A stretch of 45,768 nt of DNA, from the NCBI GenBank assembly GCA_019635485.1, contig JAHBZL010000040.1, positions 1 to 45,768 on the forward strand. Direction: 5' to 3'. The notes beneath the pieces are model-generated. The model did not search any database. It was not told the origin of the DNA and saw only the letters and a list, made by a program, of their open reading frames with translations. Position 1 is the first letter of the stretch. Each line of letters starts with the position of its first letter. This DNA is from Piscinibacter sp. (GTDB lineage: Bacteria; Pseudomonadota; Gammaproteobacteria; Burkholderiales; Burkholderiaceae_C). Shown here one piece after another: positions 6,696 to 20,066 of the stretch. Both the position numbers and the translations under genes were made by a program.

Positions 6696-7055
6696 TCAGA
6701 GCGTCATCTCGCGCTCGACGTCCTGCGTCTTGCGGCGCGCCAGCGCCAGGTTGGACTTCGCCTTGTCGAGCACGAAGTAGAGGAACACGCCTTCCTTGCG
6801 CGACATCGGGCGGATGATGTGGTACTGCTTGCCCAGCGTGATCAGGATGTCGTCGATCACGTCGTTCAGGCCAAGCTGGCGCATCACCTTGGCCTTGGCG
6901 CGCACCACCTCGGTGTTGCCGGCGGCGGCGACCTCGAGGTCGACGCCGGCGCCGGCCGAGCCGAGCATCATGCCGCTGTTGGAGTCGACCACCGCGGCGC
7001 ACATGGCACCGTCGACGGTCAGGAGTTCTTCGAGGCTCTGGCGGATGTTGGCCAT
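6696..7055 (-). CDS. Roadblock/LC7 domain protein (MglB-like)
   Basis: This 119-residue protein fits a single roadblock/LC7 fold: an N-terminal helix (IRQSLEELL), a strand pair (MCAAVVDSNSGMMLGSAG), a long helix (AAAGNTEVVRAKAKVMRQL) and C-terminal strands (DILITLGKQYHIIRPM, VFLYFVLDK). Roadblock proteins act as regulators or GAPs of small Ras-like GTPases, as MglB does for MglA in Myxococcus. It is the last of five minus-strand genes that include a small GTPase (7921-8445), which is its likely partner. An 83-base gap separates it from the gene before. The function in this organism is inferred. Confidence 0.8.
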   Translation of the reverse strand: MANIRQSLEELLTVDGAMCAAVVDSNSGMMLGSAGAGVDLEVAAAGNTEVVRAKAKVMRQLGLNDVIDDILITLGKQYHIIRPMSRKEGVFLYFVLDKAKSNLALARRKTQDVEREMTL

Positions 7056-7138
7056 GTCAGTCGGTCACTTTCTTCAGTCGAGGGGCAGGAGGCGGGGCGG
7101 ACTGCCCCTTCGGAAAATCCTTGGCGGTGCCGGCGGGC

Positions 7139-7516
7139 TCAGGCATGGCCGGCGACCAGTTCGCCGACGCGCAGCCCCATGCGCTGCAGCGTCGGCCAGT
7201 CGACGGCGCGGTGCCGCCCGACGGCGACAAACAGCAGCTCCGGGTCGGCCGCGCAGCGGAACACCGCCATCACGCCGTCCGCGTGATAGGTCGCGACGGC
7301 GCCGAACTTGCCGAGCGTGCTGAAGTGGGCCTCGTTGCGCACGTGCAGCCGCCAGTGGTCGGCGGCGGCTTCCCAGAGCGACTGGCTGGCCGCGAGCTCG
7401 CCGTGCGCGGTCCAGATCATCCCAGCGGCGGCATCGACCACGGCGCAGCCGCGGATGCCCGGTCGCGCGGCGAGCTGCGCGACGGCGTCGGCCAGCGTGG
7501 CCTTGTCGATCTTCAT
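7139..7516 (-). CDS. Roadblock-like protein of the GTPase cluster
   Basis: The protein has 125 residues. It begins MKIDKATLADAVAQLAARPGIRGCAVVDAAAGMIW, a helix followed by a strand pair as in roadblock/LC7 proteins. A helix around LWEAAADHWRLHV and two strands (FGAVATYHADGVMAVFRC, LLFVAVGRHRAVDW) follow. The domain call is weaker than for its neighbours because family motifs are few. Its start codon overlaps the stop of the preceding roadblock gene (ATGA), so the two are translationally coupled and may form a heterodimer. The start at 7516 is set by this overlap. Confidence 0.68.
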   Translation of the reverse strand: MKIDKATLADAVAQLAARPGIRGCAVVDAAAGMIWTAHGELAASQSLWEAAADHWRLHVRNEAHFSTLGKFGAVATYHADGVMAVFRCAADPELLFVAVGRHRAVDWPTLQRMGLRVGELVAGHA

Positions 7517-7905
7517 GCGCTCGCCAGCGCTCGCTCGGCCTGGGCGAGCTGCGACCAGACCAGACCCAGCAGCACGCTGGTGTCGGTCAGCACCGCGACG
7601 ATCAGCGCGTGCCGGCCGACCGAGAAGCAGCGCACGACCAGCCGGCCCTGCGTCGATTCGACGACCAGGCAGCGCGGCTCGCCGATGCCGGTCTCGCGGC
7701 TGGCAGCCGCGCCGAGCGCACCGATCGAGCTGACGATCGCGGCCAGGCGGTCCGCATCGACGGACTTGCGCTGCGCATGGGCGAGCGAGAAGCCGTCGAC
7801 GGTCGCGACCAGCACGGCCTGGGCGCCGTCGACGCCGGACAGCAGGTTGCCGGCCGCCTGTTCGGCCTGCGAGGAGAGGGGATGCGTCGGAGTCGAGGTG
7901 TTCAT
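7513..7905 (-). CDS. Roadblock/LC7 domain protein
   Basis: This 130-residue protein shows the roadblock/LC7 pattern: a helix (SSQAEQAAGNLLSGV), a strand pair (AQAVLVATVDGFSLAHAQ), a long helix (VDADRLAAIVSSIGALGAAAS) and C-terminal strands (CLVVESTQGRLVVRCF, ALIVAVLTD). TVDGFSLAHA and the RLAAIVSSIGALG helix resemble CvnB proteins of actinobacterial conservons, which also sit beside a small GTPase. It starts 15 bases after the GTPase stop and its own stop overlaps the next start. It probably acts on the adjacent GTPase, which is an inference from context. Confidence 0.8.
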   Translation of the reverse strand: MNTSTPTHPLSSQAEQAAGNLLSGVDGAQAVLVATVDGFSLAHAQRKSVDADRLAAIVSSIGALGAAASRETGIGEPRCLVVESTQGRLVVRCFSVGRHALIVAVLTDTSVLLGLVWSQLAQAERALASA

Positions 7906-7920
7906 CGGGGTGCGGTCGGG

Positions 7921-8445
7921 TCAGGCGGCCGCCTCGGCCTGGGCGATCACGGCGTCCACGAGCAGCAGCACGTCGCTGCGCTCGCGCACGTCGACCGCCA
8001 GGGTGGGGAAGGCGAGTTCGCGCTCGGCCAGCAGGTCGGCGAAGTCGTCCAGCGTCGGCAGCGGGCATTCGAGCGTGCGGCCGACGCCGATCACGCAGTT
8101 CATGCCGCGCAGCATGTCGCTGAAGTGGTCCAGGTAGACGCGCAGGTCCGCCAGCGGGTCGGGGCGTGAGTTGTCGATCAGGATGACGAGGCCGAGCGCC
8201 TGCGCGGCGATGATCCGCCACATGAAGTCGAAGCGCTGCTGGCCGGGCGTGCCGAACAGCCGGATGCGCACGCCGTCGCCGAGGTCGACATGCCCGTAGT
8301 CCAGGCCGACGGTGGTCAGCGCCTTGTCCAGCGAGGCATCGGTGTTGGCGACGTCGGTGACGACGGGCGGAATGTCGCTCAGCGCCGCGATCGCGGTGGT
8401 CTTGCCCGCGCCGGGCGTTCCGGTGAAGACGATCTTCAGGTCCAT
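7921..8445 (-). CDS. Small Ras-like GTPase (MglA/COG2229 type)
   Basis: This is a cytoplasmic 174-residue P-loop GTPase. The G1 motif is TGTPGAGKTT at residues 8-17, a switch threonine lies near residue 30, and the G3 motif FGTPGQQRF is at residues 64-72. The expected G4 motif (N/TKxD) is absent: the corresponding strand reads VIGVGRTLECP at about residues 118-127, so guanine recognition may be unusual. COG2229-type GTPases pair with roadblock proteins in MglA/MglB and conservon systems, and two roadblock genes follow directly. The gap to the upstream gene is 3 bases. The process it controls (polarity, motility, signalling) cannot be read from the sequence. Confidence 0.85.
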   Translation of the reverse strand: MDLKIVFTGTPGAGKTTAIAALSDIPPVVTDVANTDASLDKALTTVGLDYGHVDLGDGVRIRLFGTPGQQRFDFMWRIIAAQALGLVILIDNSRPDPLADLRVYLDHFSDMLRGMNCVIGVGRTLECPLPTLDDFADLLAERELAFPTLAVDVRERSDVLLLVDAVIAQAEAAA

Positions 8446-8448
8446 GGG

Positions 8449-9282
8449 TCAGCGGGGGCCGTGGCCGATGCCCAGCTTGCTGCGCAGGCTGGTGAGCAGG
8501 CTGCGGCCGGGGCGCGCGGCGCCGGCATCGGCCGGCGCCGCCGCCGGTGCGGGCGCGCCAGCCACCGCATCGGCCGCGCGCGGCGGGGCCGCGGTGTCGA
8601 GCGGTTCGACGCGCAGCAGGGTCGAGTCGATCAGGGTCGAGACGAAGCGGGCGCACTCCTGTTCCTCCACGCCGCTGAGCTGAGAGAGCTCGCGCAGGGA
8701 GAGGAAACGCGCCGACATGAAGCTCGCCATGCGCAGGCCGTAGCGCGAGGTCTGCAGCAGGTTCGCGCCGGGCCAGCGGCGCAGGCGGAAGCGCCCGGTC
8801 GCGAGCTCGGCCGGCGTGGGGCGTGCGGCCGCGGCAGGTTCGGGAGCCGATGGCCACGGTGCGGGCGCGACGGCACGCGCCGCCGGTGCGGCGCCGACCG
8901 GACGCGTTGCGGCCGAAATGGGGATGGCCGCCGAAGTCGCCGGCGCTGCAAGCTGGCGTTCGGCCGCGACCAGTGCCTCGACGAAGGCGTCGAACTGCAG
9001 CGGCCGTGCGAGCAGGGTCACGTCGGCCGCGTCCGGGGAACTTTCGGTGACTCGCAGCTGCACCGGCGCGCGCGTCAGGCTGCCGGGGATGGTCGGCGGG
9101 TCGTCGGCATCATGGATGTACACGTCGACCGGCGCCTGCGAGACCAGCGACCAGCGGCCGCGCAGCCGATCGCTGCGCACGCCGATGAAGACCTCCAGGC
9201 GCAGCAGGTCGTTCTTCGACAGGCCGGCCGGCATGATGCGCAGCGCCGGGCCGCCGTCCGCGTCGACGGGCGGCGCGCTCAT
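8449..9282 (-). CDS. Uncharacterised first gene of the GTPase cluster
   Basis: I do not recognise a named family for this 277-residue protein. Residues 1-120 hold a predicted alpha/beta region (LRLEVFIGVRSDRLRGRWSL, VDVYIHDADD, DVTLLARPLQFDAFVEALVAAERQL). A low-complexity Ala/Pro linker follows at about 125-165. A compact helical domain comes next (FRLRRWPGANLLQTSRYGLR, ASFMSARFLSLRELSQLSGV), possibly winged-helix, then another Ala/Pro stretch. There is no signal peptide. It lies 3 bases before the GTPase gene and probably works with it, perhaps as scaffold or output. The start is uncertain: ATG at 9282 was taken, but GTG at 9339 in the same frame is possible. Confidence 0.62.
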   Translation of the reverse strand: MSAPPVDADGGPALRIMPAGLSKNDLLRLEVFIGVRSDRLRGRWSLVSQAPVDVYIHDADDPPTIPGSLTRAPVQLRVTESSPDAADVTLLARPLQFDAFVEALVAAERQLAAPATSAAIPISAATRPVGAAPAARAVAPAPWPSAPEPAAAARPTPAELATGRFRLRRWPGANLLQTSRYGLRMASFMSARFLSLRELSQLSGVEEQECARFVSTLIDSTLLRVEPLDTAAPPRAADAVAGAPAPAAAPADAGAARPGRSLLTSLRSKLGIGHGPR

Positions 9283-13658: not shown

Positions 13659-13670
13659 CGGCTCGCCGCG

Positions 13671-14243
13671 TCAGCGGGTCAATCCCTTGCCGGCCGCCGT
13701 CTCGGGCGGCGGAGGCGGTGGCGGTGGCGCGACTCGGTTGAAGTCGGCGCGGACGTCGGGCAGCGGTGTGACCGGTGGCGCCAGCGCACAGGACTGCGCC
13801 AGCCCGGCCGGACACGAGAAGGTCTCCACGGCGCCGGTCTCGAATCTCGACGGCTGTTCGTGGACCACCTCGAAATGCTCCCCGGTGGCCGCCTTCCAGC
13901 CGTCGCGGGCCGCGTGCGCGCAGTTGTTGCCGCGCGTCGCGTACTGGTGCGGCTGATCTGCCCAGGCCTCGAACTGGCTCAGCTGCTGCGCCGTCAGCGT
14001 CTTCTCGCGCGCCACCTCGCCCTGGCCCTGCCAATGCGCGTCGCAGTTGCGGCGCAATTCCGTGCGCTCGCCGGTCGAGGTGTGCGGCTGGGCCTGGTCC
14101 GTGCCGTCGACATACGGGCTGCGGTCGCCTTGCAGGCTGTAGGTGGTCGTCTGGCCGTTCTGCTCGAGGCTGAGCCAGGCGTGGCTGCCGCGCGGATCCT
14201 GGGGGTCGGGCACGCAGGTGTGCAGGCGCAGGATGCTGGCCAT
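13671..14243 (-). CDS. Predicted papain-like fold protein with polyproline tail
   Basis: This 190-residue protein is the last gene of the six-gene coupling-ATPase operon. It has an early GSHAWLSLEQNG segment (His21) and a later RGNNCAHAARDGWKAATG segment (Cys108). The His-before-Cys order with a G-H-x-W strand and an NNC helix start is the pattern of circularly permuted NlpC/P60 or LRAT-like enzymes, so a cysteine hydrolase or acyltransferase is plausible. The C-terminus is DF (167-168), a run of eight prolines (173-180), then ETAAGKGLTR, similar to the tail of the 261-residue protein of the same operon. There is no signal peptide. The start at 14243 is 28 bases after the preceding stop. The fold call is by eye and moderate. 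Confidence 0.65.
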   Translation of the reverse strand: MASILRLHTCVPDPQDPRGSHAWLSLEQNGQTTTYSLQGDRSPYVDGTDQAQPHTSTGERTELRRNCDAHWQGQGEVAREKTLTAQQLSQFEAWADQPHQYATRGNNCAHAARDGWKAATGEHFEVVHEQPSRFETGAVETFSCPAGLAQSCALAPPVTPLPDVRADFNRVAPPPPPPPPETAAGKGLTR

Positions 14244-14271
14244 GACGCGCGGGTGCGAGGTTCGCCTCGGC

Positions 14272-14697
14272 TCAGCGCGGCACCAGCCGCACGAGCCGCG
14301 GACGCAGCGGCAACTGCACCGCCAGGTACGGCATCTGACGCAGCGGCTCGGGCAGGCGGCCGGGATGGGCGGCTTCCCATTCGTGCCGGCGCAGCACCGG
14401 GAAGTCGCCGGGCTCGACCCGCCAGCGTGCGCGCGGATGGTCGGCGAACTCCGCGCGGATGGCGATCTCGACCGTATCGCCGTCCACCACCCGCACCCGC
14501 GCCGCGGCACCGGGATAGAAGAGGAAGTCGGGACGCAGCGCCGCCAGGTCGACGCAGGCCCAGGGCCGGCCCTCGCGGTCGTCGATCACCGCCAGCACGG
14601 CGGGACGGCCGGGATCGACGGCGACGAACTCGGGTGGTCCGAAGCGCCGCAGGAAGTCGGCTTCGGGCAGGGTGTCGAGGTCGATGACGCGGGGCAT
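14272..14697 (-). CDS. Uncharacterised 141-aa protein of the coupling-ATPase operon
   Basis: I do not recognise this family. The protein is soluble and basic at its C-terminus, with predicted strands (PEFVAVDPGRPAVLAVIDD, PWACVDLAALRPDFLFYPG, ARVRVVDGDTVEIAIRAEF) and a C-terminal strand (MPYLAVQLPLRPRLVRLVPR). It has no signal peptide or membrane segment. It lies 12 bases after the coiled-coil gene and 28 bases before the papain-like gene. A chaperone, adaptor or immunity protein for the next gene would fit the position, but nothing in the sequence proves it. Confidence 0.62.
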   Translation of the reverse strand: MPRVIDLDTLPEADFLRRFGPPEFVAVDPGRPAVLAVIDDREGRPWACVDLAALRPDFLFYPGAAARVRVVDGDTVEIAIRAEFADHPRARWRVEPGDFPVLRRHEWEAAHPGRLPEPLRQMPYLAVQLPLRPRLVRLVPR

Positions 14698-14709
14698 GGG
14701 GCAGCGGCG

Positions 14710-15495
14710 TCAGCGCGCGAGCCGGTGTTCCTGCTCGGGCGGGGGCGGAGGCGGCGGCGGGGGAGGCGGAAGCGGCGCGGCGAAGTCCCTGGCGAAGCGG
14801 CTTTGCGACACATCGGCCTGCGGCGTGTTGTCGTTGGCGGGCACGGCAGCGGCTGCTGCCGGGGCACCGCCGCCGCGGCCGGGTGGTTCGTTGTCGTTGG
14901 CGGGAACGCGCGACGGGGTGACCTCGGCCGGATCAGGGCCGGGACCTTGCCCTGCGGGCCGGTTCCGCTCGGCGTTGACGGCCTCCGAGACTTCGCGGAC
15001 GCTCTCCTGGGTCTGCCGCCGGATCTCCTCCGGCCGTTGCTGCAGCGGCAGCTCGTGGTGCGGTGGCGGTGGTGCGGCGAAGGCCTCGGCCACCGGCATG
15101 GCGGGCAGGTCGGGCGACAGCGACTGCGCGACCACGCCGGCGATCCGCGCGGTGTTCTTGGCCTGTTCCATCAGCGAGGGCGAGGGATCCTTCGGTGCGA
15201 TGTTCTGTTCCAGCGCCTCGGCGTGTTCGGGATGTCGCAGCTGGAGCTGCGCCACGGCGGTCTGCGCCTGCACGTACCGGTCGGTCTTCTGTTCCAGCGT
15301 GGCCTGGGTGTCGAAGTAGTTCTTCTCGAGCTCGCGGCGCTGGTCCGGCGTCGCGGTGTCGCGACCCTGCTCGAGGTTCTGTTTCGCCAGGTCGTGGTCG
15401 ACCTGGGCCATCTTCTTCTCGCCGGCCGCCAGCTGCTGCTCGCGCATCAGCGCCTGATGCGTCTTCCAGATCTCCCCGTAGCTCGGGTCGGACAT
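14710..15495 (-). CDS. Coiled-coil protein with polyproline tail
   Basis: This 261-residue protein is of unknown family. Residues 10-95 are charged and helical with Gln/Glu/Lys heptads (KTHQALMREQQLAAGEKKMA, RRELEKNYFDTQATLEQK), probably a coiled coil. Residues 105-180 are a mixed region. The rest is low complexity, with two copies of VPANDN (197-202, 218-223). The end is DF (237-238), an 11-proline run (243-253) and EQEHRLAR. The DF-polyproline-E-x-L-x-R ending resembles that of the 190-residue protein encoded two genes downstream. No signal peptide is present. It may be a substrate or structural partner of the operon's ATPase, which is an inference. Confidence 0.65.
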   Translation of the reverse strand: MSDPSYGEIWKTHQALMREQQLAAGEKKMAQVDHDLAKQNLEQGRDTATPDQRRELEKNYFDTQATLEQKTDRYVQAQTAVAQLQLRHPEHAEALEQNIAPKDPSPSLMEQAKNTARIAGVVAQSLSPDLPAMPVAEAFAAPPPPHHELPLQQRPEEIRRQTQESVREVSEAVNAERNRPAGQGPGPDPAEVTPSRVPANDNEPPGRGGGAPAAAAAVPANDNTPQADVSQSRFARDFAAPLPPPPPPPPPPPEQEHRLAR

Positions 15496-15510
15496 CGCGC
15501 TGACCTCGAC

Positions 15511-16155
15511 TCAGCGTGGCGCCCACACGCCCTTGGCGGATGCCTTGGCCTGCCGCTCCGCCTCCTGGTACAGCGGCGGCGCGTCCGAAGTGGCGCGGCC
15601 CAGGCCGTTCAACAGCACCACCTGGGCCACGTCCTTGCCGGTGGCGGTCAGGCATCGGTGGCGCGCACCTTGCGGCGTGCAGGTCACCTGGTTGCCGTTG
15701 CTCCGCAGCCATTGGGCCATGCTGGGCAGGGCCGGCCCCGTGATGCCGTCCAGGCCCGCCAGGCGCACGCGCCGCCCGCCGACCATCAGCGTGTCGGTGG
15801 CGACGACCGAGTCGACGCTGCCTGACACGGGCGTCGCAGCGGTCTCGGCGGGACGCGTGGGGGCCGGCGATGCCGGCGCTACCGGCGGAGCAGGTGCGGG
15901 TGCAGGGGCCTCGGCGGGCGGCGATGCCGGCGCCGTCGTGGGTGGCGATGGAGCGGGTGGCGGCGGGGGGGCGGGCGGGGGCGACGGGGCCGGCGGCGTC
16001 GCCGCGGCCGGTGCGGCGGCGGAGGCCGATCCCTCGACCGCAGCCGGCTTGCGCTTGTTCTTGTAGAACGTGCCTTCGGCGCCGGCCTCGGCCAGCAGGC
16101 CGGCGGCCAGCAGCATCGTCGCACCGAGGGTGCGCAGTCGCTCAGCTGAAGTCAT
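15511..16155 (-). CDS. Exported SNase-like domain protein, probably inactive
   Basis: This 214-residue protein has a hydrophobic signal sequence (GATMLLAAGLLAEAGAEG), an Ala/Pro linker at about 42-108 and a thermonuclease-like domain at 116-214. The domain shows DTLMVGGRRVRLAGLDG, DVAQVVLLNGLGRA and a closing YQEAERQAKASAKGVW, the normal SNase ending. The active-site context is eroded: the usual D-G-D-T is A-T-D-T (only Asp121 kept), and the D-A-P-E after VRLAGLD is replaced by GITGP, so the catalytic Glu seems missing. A non-catalytic nucleic-acid- or protein-binding role is likely. The start overlaps the ATPase gene by 14 bases. The linker is encoded by G-rich tracts, including a 7-G run at 15965-15971. 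Confidence 0.72.
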   Translation of the reverse strand: MTSAERLRTLGATMLLAAGLLAEAGAEGTFYKNKRKPAAVEGSASAAAPAAATPPAPSPPPAPPPPPAPSPPTTAPASPPAEAPAPAPAPPVAPASPAPTRPAETAATPVSGSVDSVVATDTLMVGGRRVRLAGLDGITGPALPSMAQWLRSNGNQVTCTPQGARHRCLTATGKDVAQVVLLNGLGRATSDAPPLYQEAERQAKASAKGVWAPR

Positions 16156-18829
16156 GGTCCACCGCGATGATGTCCTGGCGCACGGCACCGGCCCGCTGGA
16201 TCTGCGCAAAGGCATGCCAGCGGCCCATGTGGATCAGGTCCGAAATCGACAGCGCGTCGGCCAGTTCGTTGCCGGACTTGCGGTAGTCGCGCTCCAGGTC
16301 CTCGGCGCGCCAGGCCGCCGCCTGCAGCGACTGGATCTGCGCCACGTCGCCGCCTTCGCCGCTGGTGACCTTGGGGATGAAGCGCGTGTCGTCGCTGTAG
16401 GCGCGCTGCGCGTGCGCGACGCCCAGCGAGAGCCGTTCCGGGCTGAGCAGGCCGAGAGCCGAGCGGAAGAACACGCTCGCACCGCCCCCGACGCCTTCGG
16501 TCTCGTCGACCGGCAACAGCGGGTCCCAGCCGTCGATCAGGCCGCGGTACTCGATGCTCTCGCGGTGGCCGTCGTCGTAGACGCGGTTGCGTTCGTATTG
16601 GCCGGCACACCAGCAGGCGTACTCGACCGTGTCCCGGTCCTCGGTGCGGAAGAACACCTTGGAGCGGGCCTGCTGCATGAAGTTGGTGGCCGAGTCGTGG
16701 CCGACCGCCTGGTACAGGCCGGCCGCCGTCTGGGTCGCGAAGATGCCGGCCACGCCGGTCGAGCGGGCCACGTTCCAGAACGTCGCGTCGCTCAGGCCCG
16801 AGGTCGGGTCGACGGTGACGATCTCCTGCACCTCGTCCATCACGACGATGCAGGGGCGGTCCTGCGGTTTGACGGTGACCTTGCCCTGGCGGAACGCGGC
16901 CTCCCGTACGCGGGCCTCGCGGTACAGGTTGGTCTTGATCAGCACGGTGACGATGCGCGCGGGCAGACCGTCCTCGACGGACGACAGCGCGTTCAACACC
17001 ACCTGGCCGTCGAGCGCCGCGGCAATCGAGATGGTGTCGGCCGGGTTTCCGCTCGCGAAGCGCTCGCGCAGCACCGCCGCGCCGGCGAAGCCGTCCAGCA
17101 GCTGCGTCACGTTGGCGACGATGCCGGTGCGCGTCTCGCTGGCCATGTCGCGCCAGCTCGACTCGAGGTACACCATGCTGTCGTAAACCTCCTTCGTGGT
17201 CACCCGGTCGTAGGTGCGCTTCAGCGCCGCATAGGCTTCCGGCTGGTCGAGCAGCTGCTGGGCGCGGTCGGCCGCGCCGCCGATCCACTCGCGCAGGGCG
17301 CCGGTGGCCTCCAGGATGCGCTCCTGCCGCAGCACGGCCTGGTAGGCCCACCACAGGCTGTACGGCGACATGCCCTCCCGCGTGACCACCGCCTGGCCCA
17401 GCTCGGTGAGCGCGTAGGCCTGGGCGACACTGAGCACGTTGCGCAGCACATTGGCAGCCATGTCGGGCCAGAAGCTGTCGCCGCCCGAGCCGCCGGACAG
17501 CTGCGTCATCACCGAGCGCAGGGTGCCGGCGATCTGCGTCGGCGTCAGGCCGGCGAACACGTCGACACCCTTCTGTCCCGGGCCGGTGCCGATCACGATC
17601 GGCTCCACGCCGGGCCGCTCGCTGCGCACCACCGAGGCGACGTCGTTCCACAGCACACCCTTCGCGTCGCAGACGTACATGCCGAACTGCGGCCGGCGCA
17701 GCAGCTGGCGGATCAGCGGCTTCAGCAGCGCCGTGGTCTTGCCTTCGCCGGTGCCGCCGAACACGAGCAGGTGCTGGAACAGCGATTCCTGATCCAGGCG
17801 CAGCGGCTGCCCGGGGGTCGGCGCGGACAGGTCGCCGCGGGCCCGCAGCGTGCCGCTGGCGCGGCCGATGTCGAAGCTCGGCACGCCGCGCAGGTAGTCC
17901 GTGGCCAGCAGCACCTGTTGCCGGTAGGTGCGCCGGACCAGGTTGCGCGTCTCGGTCCGGTAGGCCCAGCGCACGTCCGCATCCTTGGACTGCCATTCGT
18001 AGGGCGCGGCCTTCTGGCGCTGCCAGTTGCGCAGCAGCAGCAGCAGCGCGAGCAGTCCGAGGCCGAGGCAGGCGATGGCGATGCCGGGCAGCATCACCGC
18101 GACATTGCCGGCCGTGCGCAGCAACGTCGGCCCGATCACCGACAGCGAGGCGCTCGCGATCCAGGTCGTCGGCACCGGCACCGGTTCCTGGCCGGGCCAT
18201 TGCTCGACGCGCAGCGCGTCGCCGCCCTTGAGCTGGCCGAACGCATCGGCCACGCCGCTGAACGCACTCAGCAGGGCTGCCAGCGTCAGCGCGACGAAGG
18301 CCAGGCCGGCCATCGTTGCCGCGACCCGCGCCGACGAGCGCAGCGCCGCGTCGGTCATGTGCCGATCGCCGAGCCAGTCCAGCCGCATGCCGCCGATCAG
18401 CCGCCCATCGTCGAAGGGCGGGCGTGCGACGTCATCCGGCACATCCCGGTAGAGATCCGGGAACACGCTCTCCGGCCAGAGCTGCAGTGCGGCCTCGCGC
18501 CGGTCGCCGCGGACCAGCAGCGCCGGCAGGTCGGTGCGCGCAGGGGCGAGGCGCCACTGCGACAAGCGGTCGACCAGGCCGGCCACATGGCGGTCCAGCG
18601 GCACGACGCGCAGCAGGCGTGCCATCAGCCAGTCCATCGGCCGCCAGAAGACGATCGCGACGAAGCCGACGGCGAACAGCAGCACGGCGGGCAGCAGGTT
18701 CAGCGCGCGCAGCGCGATGCGGCGCACGAACGGAACGGCCAGGGCCACCGCGAAGGCGACGCCGATCAGCAGCACCGTGCCGATCACGCTGCCGAGTCCG
18801 CCGCCGAGAAGTCGAAGGGCATCGAGCAT
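16142..18829 (-). CDS. VirD4/TraG-like type IV coupling ATPase
   Basis: This 895-residue membrane ATPase of the HerA/FtsK-VirD4 superfamily is the core of the operon. Membrane segments lie at about 10-30, 42-62, 170-192 and 243-268. The ATPase domain has a Walker A FGGTGEGKTT at 357-366, a Walker B IVVMDEVQEI at 661-670 and an ATQT sensor near 698-701. YVCDAKGVLW and the C-terminal FFRTEDRDTVEYACWCAGQ segment match TraG/TraD-type coupling proteins (TraM-recognition region). Coupling proteins hand DNA or proteins to type IV secretion machines, yet no relaxase, VirB4 or pilus gene is nearby. It follows the single-pass protein gene by 18 bases. Substrate and partner channel are unknown. Confidence 0.88.
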   Translation of the reverse strand: MLDALRLLGGGLGSVIGTVLLIGVAFAVALAVPFVRRIALRALNLLPAVLLFAVGFVAIVFWRPMDWLMARLLRVVPLDRHVAGLVDRLSQWRLAPARTDLPALLVRGDRREAALQLWPESVFPDLYRDVPDDVARPPFDDGRLIGGMRLDWLGDRHMTDAALRSSARVAATMAGLAFVALTLAALLSAFSGVADAFGQLKGGDALRVEQWPGQEPVPVPTTWIASASLSVIGPTLLRTAGNVAVMLPGIAIACLGLGLLALLLLLRNWQRQKAAPYEWQSKDADVRWAYRTETRNLVRRTYRQQVLLATDYLRGVPSFDIGRASGTLRARGDLSAPTPGQPLRLDQESLFQHLLVFGGTGEGKTTALLKPLIRQLLRRPQFGMYVCDAKGVLWNDVASVVRSERPGVEPIVIGTGPGQKGVDVFAGLTPTQIAGTLRSVMTQLSGGSGGDSFWPDMAANVLRNVLSVAQAYALTELGQAVVTREGMSPYSLWWAYQAVLRQERILEATGALREWIGGAADRAQQLLDQPEAYAALKRTYDRVTTKEVYDSMVYLESSWRDMASETRTGIVANVTQLLDGFAGAAVLRERFASGNPADTISIAAALDGQVVLNALSSVEDGLPARIVTVLIKTNLYREARVREAAFRQGKVTVKPQDRPCIVVMDEVQEIVTVDPTSGLSDATFWNVARSTGVAGIFATQTAAGLYQAVGHDSATNFMQQARSKVFFRTEDRDTVEYACWCAGQYERNRVYDDGHRESIEYRGLIDGWDPLLPVDETEGVGGGASVFFRSALGLLSPERLSLGVAHAQRAYSDDTRFIPKVTSGEGGDVAQIQSLQAAAWRAEDLERDYRKSGNELADALSISDLIHMGRWHAFAQIQRAGAVRQDIIAVDHDFS

Positions 18830-18847
18830 GGGGATCCCTCCGTCCGC

Positions 18848-19477
18848 TCAGCGTTCGTCGGGCAGCAGCGGTGCCAGCGACAACGGGATGTCGCGTGCCC
18901 GCAGCGACGGGTACGGCCGCGGCTGGTACAGGCCCGGTCCCTGCAGCGACCCGTACTGCCACTTGTCGCCGAATTTCTTGAACACGCCGATCCAGCGCGC
19001 GGCCTGCGCGCGCGTGGGCTGCCCGACATTGACGTTGGCCGCGACCACGTAGAGGTCGCCCGCCTTCAGGTAGTGCAGCTGCTCGCTGTGCCAGTCACCC
19101 TTCCACAGTGCGTCGCGTTCCGTCTCCGTGAACGTGAAGGTGTCGGTGGGCAGTTCACCGGAGCGGTCGAGCGAGTGCAGCACGGCGTCGATCACCTCCG
19201 ACAGCTCGGCGACAGGCGGCAGCGCGGCCAGCTCGGACGCGCCGAGCGTCGGCCGCTGCAGCGGTGTGACAGCCGCTTCGGCGCGTGTCTGCGCCTTGGC
19301 GAGGCGCTGCTGCACGATCGATGCGACCGACGCTTCCGGCCGCGTTCCGGGGGCCAGGCTCGCCACCCAGGCGCCGACCCAGATCAGCAGCAAGCCGCTA
19401 CCGACGAACCACGGCTGGAGACGGCGCAGCCGTGCGGCACGCACGTGGCCGTCGCTGACCAGTGACTCCCACAGCAT
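18848..19477 (-). CDS. Single-pass membrane protein, first gene of the coupling-ATPase operon
   Basis: This 209-residue protein is of unknown family. One membrane helix lies at about 24-44 (FVGSGLLLIWVGAWVASL) after a short, basic cytoplasmic N-terminus. A helical stretch follows (ASIVQQRLAKAQTRAEAA), then a probable periplasmic alpha/beta domain with FTFTETERDALWKGDWHSEQ, YVVAANVNVGQPTRAQAARW and GVFKKFGDKWQYGSL. The layout resembles bitopic partners of type IV secretion ATPases (VirB8/IcmL-like). I see no motif that proves that relation, so it is only a guess. It starts the operon, with a possible promoter just upstream. Confidence 0.66.
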   Translation of the reverse strand: MLWESLVSDGHVRAARLRRLQPWFVGSGLLLIWVGAWVASLAPGTRPEASVASIVQQRLAKAQTRAEAAVTPLQRPTLGASELAALPPVAELSEVIDAVLHSLDRSGELPTDTFTFTETERDALWKGDWHSEQLHYLKAGDLYVVAANVNVGQPTRAQAARWIGVFKKFGDKWQYGSLQGPGLYQPRPYPSLRARDIPLSLAPLLPDER

Positions 19478-19513
19478 CCCGTCGCCCCCGCGTTCTTACT
19501 TTTGGTTGCATCT

Positions 19514-19542
19514 ATTGTGGGAGGGATTCGGAACGTCTGCAA
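19514..19542 (-). promoter_or_regulatory. Possible promoter of the coupling-ATPase operon
   Basis: On the minus strand TTGCAG (19537-19542) and CACAAT (19514-19519) are 17 bases apart in a locally AT-richer stretch, 37 bases upstream of the first start codon. The match to the sigma-70 consensus is only partial (3/6 and 4/6). No ribosome-binding site stronger than a G-rich stretch is seen. Confidence 0.3.
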
Positions 19543-19577
19543 GCCGTGACGCGACGCGCGGGCGGCGGCCGGCCGCG

Positions 19578-20066
19578 TCAGCCGCGCCGCACGCGGCGCA
19601 GTTCGTCGAGGATCAGCAGGGCGGCGCCGATGCTGATCGCGCTGTCGGCGACGTTGAAGGACGGGAAGTACCAGCCGGCGTGGTGCACCTGGATGAAGTC
19701 GACCACGTAGCCGTGCAGCAGGCGATCGACCACGTTGCCGAGCGCGCCGCCGAGGATCAGCGCCAGTGCGGTGGCGAACAGCCGCTGGCCGGCATGCCGG
19801 CGCAGCAGCCAGACGATGAAGACCGCGGCGGCGGCGCCGAGCACGACGAAGAACCAGCGCTGCCAGCCGGACGCGCCGGCGAGGAACGAGAACGCGGCGC
19901 CCGCGTTGTGCACGCGCACGAGGTTGAAGAACGAGGTCACCATGTGGCTGTCGCCGAGTTCGAACATGCGCAGCACGAGCGTCTTGGTGAGCTGGTCCAG
20001 CAGGATCACGAGCAGCGCGATGCCGAGCCACGGCAGCAGGGTGGAGGAACGGGAGGAGGCGGACAT
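19578..20066 (-). CDS. lspA: Signal peptidase II (lipoprotein signal peptidase)
   Basis: LspA removes the signal peptide from prolipoproteins at the inner membrane. The 162-residue protein has four membrane helices and the family motifs DQLTKTLV near residue 25, [35 protein letters not shown] (first catalytic Asp) and [12 protein letters not shown] (second catalytic Asp). The length is normal for the family. In most Burkholderiales lspA directly follows ileS; here a hybrid kinase gene and a convergent acyltransferase gene lie between them. It therefore must have its own promoter in the 107-bp divergent region. Confidence 0.96.

Follow-up and report, generated by a model that had tools for sequence, protein, structure and literature searches.

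The window, by which we mean the whole 45,768-base stretch of DNA analysed here, carries six minus-strand genes (A to F) between lspA and the gene for a DUF4399 protein. The segment separating these two host genes spans 5,919 bases (13659-19577). Its features, together with the short direct repeat found at its borders, are as follows.

13665-13675: left copy of the 11-bp direct repeat GCCGCGTCAGC, which includes the stop codon of F
13671-14243, minus strand: gene F, 190 aa, putative permuted NlpC/P60-type enzyme
14272-14697, minus strand: gene E, 141 aa, no family assigned
14710-15495, minus strand: gene D, 261 aa, hydrophilic, probably coiled-coil
15511-16155, minus strand: gene C, 214 aa, thermonuclease-like C-terminal domain
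16142-18829, minus strand: gene B, 895 aa, VirD4/TraG-class coupling ATPase
18848-19477, minus strand: gene A, 209 aa, bitopic partner of the coupling protein
19478-19571: the one longer non-coding segment in the island; it lies upstream of A and is presumably regulatory
19572-19582: right copy of the 11-bp direct repeat GCCGCGTCAGC, which includes the stop codon of lspA

A preliminary description of this DNA had placed six tightly spaced minus-strand genes at 13671-19477, and this layout was confirmed: the gaps measure 18 (A-B), 15 (C-D), 12 (D-E) and 28 bases (E-F), and C overlaps B by 14 bases. Long open reading frames are cheap at a GC content of about 72%, since an order-3 Markov simulation yielded 22.6 ATG-initiated frames of at least 261 aa per 45 kb by chance. 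Thus, the reality of A-F rests on their codon-position bias and on their tiling of the insert. The six genes have a GC3 of 0.85-0.93 versus a GC2 of 0.48-0.69, and a codon-model gene caller recovered every one of them at full length except C, which it shortened. The overall GC content of the insert genes (0.70-0.76) matches that of the host. The GC3 of B (0.93) is near the host value, and that of A and C-F (0.85-0.90) lies slightly below the 0.94-0.97 of the four neighbouring host genes measured, as expected of arriving DNA. Scans of the island for sigma-70-like sites, promoters and terminators gave nothing above shuffled sequence. Elsewhere in the window, a minus-strand run at 6696-9282 resembles, by eye, roadblock/LC7-type proteins beside a small-GTPase-like gene and is perhaps an MglA/MglB-like polarity cluster.

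The same locus was compared in seven genomes of the same genus. In five of them lspA is followed, after a short gap and without any insert, by the DUF4399 gene, and in the remaining two it is followed directly by ubiB. No match to A-F was found at the lspA locus of any of the seven, and B is absent from all seven genomes as a whole. The six genes had been thought chromosomal in character, an opinion that their absence from every same-genus genome contradicts. The lack of an attachment repeat had also been noted; here the 11-bp direct repeat bounds the operon, and GCCGCGTCAGC occurs only twice in the window, once at each border. Two random 26-bp windows have at least 10 bases in common in 0.25% of draws. 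Of 100 shuffles of the sequence, 8 contained at least two copies of the repeat and 22 at least two copies of its 10-base core, so that the repeat sequence itself is not rare and only its placement at the borders is telling. Joining the two flanks gives a plausible empty site resembling those of the congeners. The locus thus displays the bounded insertion, flanking repeat and empty site by which an IME is recognised. These data show that the operon is acquired DNA, an island of about 5.9 kb inserted at the 3' end of lspA.

The largest protein of the island, B, matches two coupling-protein domains, TrwB (PF10412, 5.5e-10, 39.1 bits, cut-off 20.5) and TraG-D_C (PF12696, 4.7e-6, 27.0 bits, cut-off 22.0). 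Its Walker A (GGTGEGKT) and Walker B (VVMDE) motifs are intact, with G361, K364, T365, D665 and E666 invariant in 18 of 18 aligned relatives. The two Pfam domains and the invariant motifs bear out the previous identification of B as an 895-aa VirD4/TraG-like ATPase with intact Walker A and B. VirD4/TraG coupling proteins usually have two membrane segments; a hydropathy scan placed four in B (residues 14-32, 43-61, 169-187 and 247-265), giving it an N-terminal membrane anchor. DotL/IcmO was the sole PDB sequence-profile match of the B family (7.5e-8), and the ATPase core resembles Mad8 of the MADS defence system (2.6e-8, PADLOC models). In A, the same kind of scan revealed a single membrane segment (residues 24-42), in agreement with its description as bitopic. 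A carries an N-terminal motif, W..LV..GHV.A.R, common to its relatives, and W3 and G10 are invariant in an alignment with 12 IME relatives and five plasmid proteins. The structure model of A (pLDDT 87) found no convincing fold match in the PDB, a VirB8/NTF2-like fold having been considered. Homologues of A detected by tblastn (25-31% identity) lie directly upstream of B in 13 of the 15 loci described below. Taken together, these comparisons show A and B to be a predicted coupling-protein module akin to the modules of IMEs.

Relatives of B were collected by a pattern scan of an 84,980-species genome collection with six exact peptides, which returned 15 loci (L034-L048), a number to be read as a lower bound. 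Thirteen of the proteins are 45-48% identical to B along almost its entire length; the other two are partial, with 51 and 54% identity. Thirteen of the loci are titled Alphaproteobacteria, including Sphingopyxis indica, Hyphomonas polymorpha and Glycocaulis sp. The B proteins of L036 and L037, from MAGs labelled Nitrospinaceae and Bacteroidota, lie near that of L034, a Robiginitomaculum MAG from the same project (branches of 0.04-0.05). Because of this closeness these two loci are probably misbinned; they were kept in all counts over 15 loci.

As judged from BLAST clusters of called genes, relaxase and NikA/MobC genes lie downstream in 13 of the 15 loci, and a tyrosine integrase is present in 11. 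Of the two loci lacking a relaxase cluster, one lies on a contig that stops about 1 kb beyond B, and the other has a truncated B. A Pfam check of relaxase, integrase, NikA and cargo was made on 29 proteins, the remaining assignments being those of the BLAST clusters. It recovered a relaxase in 4/4 proteins tested, NikA in 1/1 and a phage integrase in 3/3, one of these slightly below the cut-off. Restriction-modification-type domains were found in proteins of eight loci (L035, L037, L040, L041, L042, L044, L046 and L047), the cargo comprising type I, type III and MmeI-like proteins. VirB components were not found among the 29 proteins scanned. The preliminary description had proposed that co-occurrence only with relaxase and VirB4 would mark an ICE remnant: a relaxase does accompany the A-B pair, in 13 of the 15 relatives, but no VirB protein was seen among those scanned. 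The presence of a relaxase without VirB genes points to an IME rather than an ICE as the origin. VirB4 occurs in 10 of the 15 host genomes, counted genome-wide irrespective of position relative to the loci, suggesting that helpers are common. The left ends of L035, L038, L039, L046 and L047 resemble, by eye, tRNA-Leu anticodon regions.

On this gene content, L034-L048 are a predicted family of chromosomal IMEs with their own coupling protein, its A partner, a MobA-type relaxase and interchangeable cargo; we found no published description or name for it in the literature searched. A tree of B placed the window protein within the IME clade, apart from the plasmid clade (100/100), with its position inside the IME clade left unresolved. 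Both the tree and the alignment (A2) use 11 of the 15 IME relatives, those other than L041, L044, L045 and L048; in the tree, several of the plasmid proteins have long branches. The window island shares with these IMEs the A-B order, its nature as a chromosomal island and the lack of VirB genes noted above. It differs from them in having no integrase, NikA/MobC or relaxase gene, no restriction-modification-type cargo and no tRNA-Leu-like end, and in carrying C-F, of which D, E and F have no counterpart in any of the 15 loci.

More distant relatives of B, at 24-34% identity, are found on plasmids. None of the 25 matching plasmid records is typed as conjugative. In six records a MobF relaxase is annotated or typed, and in all six a protein is encoded directly before B; no T4SS genes are listed for them in the PLSDB gene tables, which are incomplete. 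Five of the six upstream proteins were aligned to A (18-21% identity, W3 and G10 kept), and the sixth, from L006, was judged by eye only. MOBF plasmids such as pKAM643_3, pNYY1_6 and pRphaN841a thus resemble the island in having an A-like gene directly before a VirD4-like coupling protein and no T4SS, and several also encode exported proline-rich or hydrophilic proteins after the coupling protein. They differ from it in the low identity of B and in being replicons with a MobF relaxase.

On three Rhizobium plasmids (L005, 18441-21651; L071, 12372-15603; L072, 12446-13566), the coupling-protein gene is followed closely by two or three genes whose products, otherwise unlike one another, carry the motif F-A-x-M-A-[DE]-R-A-x-x-A-A at a distance of 28-31 residues from the stop, with a second copy in one protein per plasmid. 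In the other loci analysed, none of 2361 stop-to-stop frames of at least 100 aa had the motif within its C-terminal 60 residues, and the same pattern did not match D or F. The motif may serve as a shared signal for docking or secretion, used by the coupling protein of a T4SS-less MOBF plasmid.

The complete island is known from one assembly only. B was not found in 39 other close relatives, and in 398 other Burkholderiales genomes it occurs only as one 65-residue partial match. Among 369 genomes of the class, 14 others gave partial matches at 24-41% identity; no relatives were found in phage records or viral contigs. The preliminary description had named conservation of the six-gene block in many genomes as support for a distinct system; this single short match and the lack of convincing relatives of D-F speak against such conservation.

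The remark that neither a relaxase nor a VirB gene accompanies the ATPase proved correct. No relaxase or integrase family was detected in A-F, and the insert has no other gene. VirB4 (PF03135) had no match in the assembly, an absence that is provisional, as it depends on one Pfam model and an assembly that is 84% complete in 81 contigs. On this VirB4 result the island does not count as an ICE or other self-transmissible element, which would need VirB4 and mating-pair formation genes. TrwC (PF08751) had no match in the assembly either, and the same was true of T4SS-DNA_transf (PF02534), a weak test in that the model misses even B. The only PF03432 relaxase in the genome lies on contig C56, within a second mobile-looking region (L069, 15000-34000) that has a MobA/VirD2-type relaxase, a ParA-like gene and, by eye, genes resembling SSB and an RHS-type giant protein. 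Neither this relaxase nor 10 other genes called beside it matched the IME proteins.

Turning to the accessory genes, C has a signal-peptide-like start (by eye) and a proline-rich linker. Its residues 114-212 match plasmid-borne proteins by tblastn (best E 4e-8, 34-41% identity), several of which are annotated as thermonuclease family, these at E 2e-3 to 4e-3; the SNase-like character ascribed to C was thereby supported. No Pfam family matched C at E 1 or better. By eye, against the usual thermonuclease motifs, its catalytic residues look degenerate. D matched no family and had no relative in plasmids or in 387 other genomes; close to its C-terminus stand 11 consecutive prolines, followed only by a short tail. 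E likewise matched no family and had no relative in plasmids. Four weak matches of E in the 387 other genomes (E 3e-4 to 5e-4) were taken as chance: realignment left two of them without significance (E 0.18 and 3.4), a third covers 65 residues, and the fourth falls in what is presumably an MltA-type gene, judged by eye.

No relative of F was found in plasmids, 348 other genomes or viral contigs. His21 and Cys108 are candidate catalytic residues, and an 8-proline run lies near the end of the protein. The low-confidence structure model (pLDDT 57), for which Foldseek returned no match at E 0.001, is in line with the papain-like fold predicted before, and F may be a permuted NlpC/P60-type (YiiX/TseH-like) enzyme. 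A common secretion tail of D and F was looked for and not supported, as nothing beyond polyproline was significant (1269 of 2000 shuffles scored as high).

We favour the explanation that the island is a relaxase-less, IME-derived element whose coupling module, A and B, serves the T4SS of a helper, and on balance we consider it probable. With no relaxase or integrase of its own, the island is called IME-derived and not an IME, and its movement would have depended on a recombinase provided in trans. B would form the usual hexameric inner-membrane motor, and A might help B to dock. Once a helper conjugative element had brought a T4SS, B would act as the receptor that feeds substrates to its channel, either replacing the helper's coupling protein or working alongside it. 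A relaxosome provided in trans would be the substrate; with lower probability, the soluble island proteins D and F would take this role. C is a putative exported accessory. Against this explanation stand the ordinary frequency of the repeat sequence, the lack of D-F counterparts in the IMEs, the mismatch between the C56 genes and the IME proteins and the restriction of the island to a single assembly. So do the relaxase and integrase missing from the island and the failure to find VirB4 in the 84%-complete assembly, which make any present-day activity hypothetical.

These same absences are what one would expect of a decaying remnant, that is, of an IME that landed here and then lost its integrase, its relaxase and most of its cargo, leaving A-B and the other genes out of use. 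We hold this to be possible, if rather unlikely. In its favour, both missing genes are present in most relatives (relaxase in 13/15, integrase in 11/15), and the island occurs in one genome only. Its difficulty is the good state of what is left: the six reading frames are unbroken and closely packed, and codon bias and Walker residues have been kept. Six uninterrupted genes with conserved Walker residues argue against advanced decay. Moreover, with the two repeat copies placed directly at the outermost genes, a simple internal loss must have spared both ends.

A more doubtful alternative is that the module loads the island's own proteins, chiefly D and F, into the T4SS of another element. As an effector-delivery cassette of this kind, an island with no channel would inject its own substrates into neighbour cells through the T4SS of a co-resident element, which we likewise regard as improbable; F would be an NlpC/P60-type enzyme active in the recipient, while the producing cell may be shielded by C or E. 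Several observations weigh against it: the model of F is of low confidence, the tails of D and F have no significant likeness beyond proline and lack the Rhizobium motif, and the relatives of A-B, judged by gene content, all handle DNA mobilization.

The preliminary description had proposed an undescribed, self-contained export, contact-dependent or defence system. The compact operon, the orphan genes and the Mad8-like ATPase core could be cited for such a system. However, the island has no outer-membrane or channel component, the A-B pairs of relatives are always associated with mobile elements, and the six-gene block is not conserved. The gene content also falls short of any PADLOC system, as A, D, E and F matched no PADLOC family and C matched one only at E 0.23. 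We therefore consider this proposal very improbable. That the contig is an assembly chimera joined to foreign DNA is scarcely conceivable: the assembly is fragmented (81 contigs, 84% complete), but both flanks are host genes in congener order, the GC content of the insert matches, and a target-like repeat stands at the borders.

Mobilizable elements normally have their own relaxase and borrow a coupling protein. The present island is unusual in that its bounded DNA includes a coupling module but no relaxase; with the module come four accessory genes, of which three (D, E and F) are orphans. Coupling proteins carried by mobilizable elements have been described before. A coupling protein of their own, which probably replaces that of the helper, is reported for two Streptococcus IMEs and for MOBC1 plasmids, CloDF13 among them (PMC7434980, PMC5704250), and in a Mesorhizobium survey mobilizable plasmids and IMEs without traACD are reported to carry virD4-like genes (PMC8627217). 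Like the window island, these elements have no channel and are thought to dock on a helper T4SS; they differ from it in that all those described in these accounts have a relaxase too (PMC7434980, PMC8627217, PMC5704250). Relaxase-less mobilizable islands (MGIs) are similar in being non-autonomous and borrowing helper machinery, but those in the account of PMC5704250 contribute a transposase, an oriT or components of the channel, and none there combines a coupling protein with the lack of a relaxase.

The interaction between coupling protein and channel is called not yet defined in a 2025 review (PMC12857230). A, which is conserved beside the B lineage in both IMEs and plasmids, is a candidate for the docking step. 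If effector delivery were true after all, a DNA-mobilization module would have become a protein-delivery hitchhiker. If the relaxase-less, helper-dependent module that we favour is functional, it would follow that the substrate receptor of type IV secretion can be exchanged and can move on its own, and the island would offer a compact model of the way in which coupling proteins interact with foreign channels.
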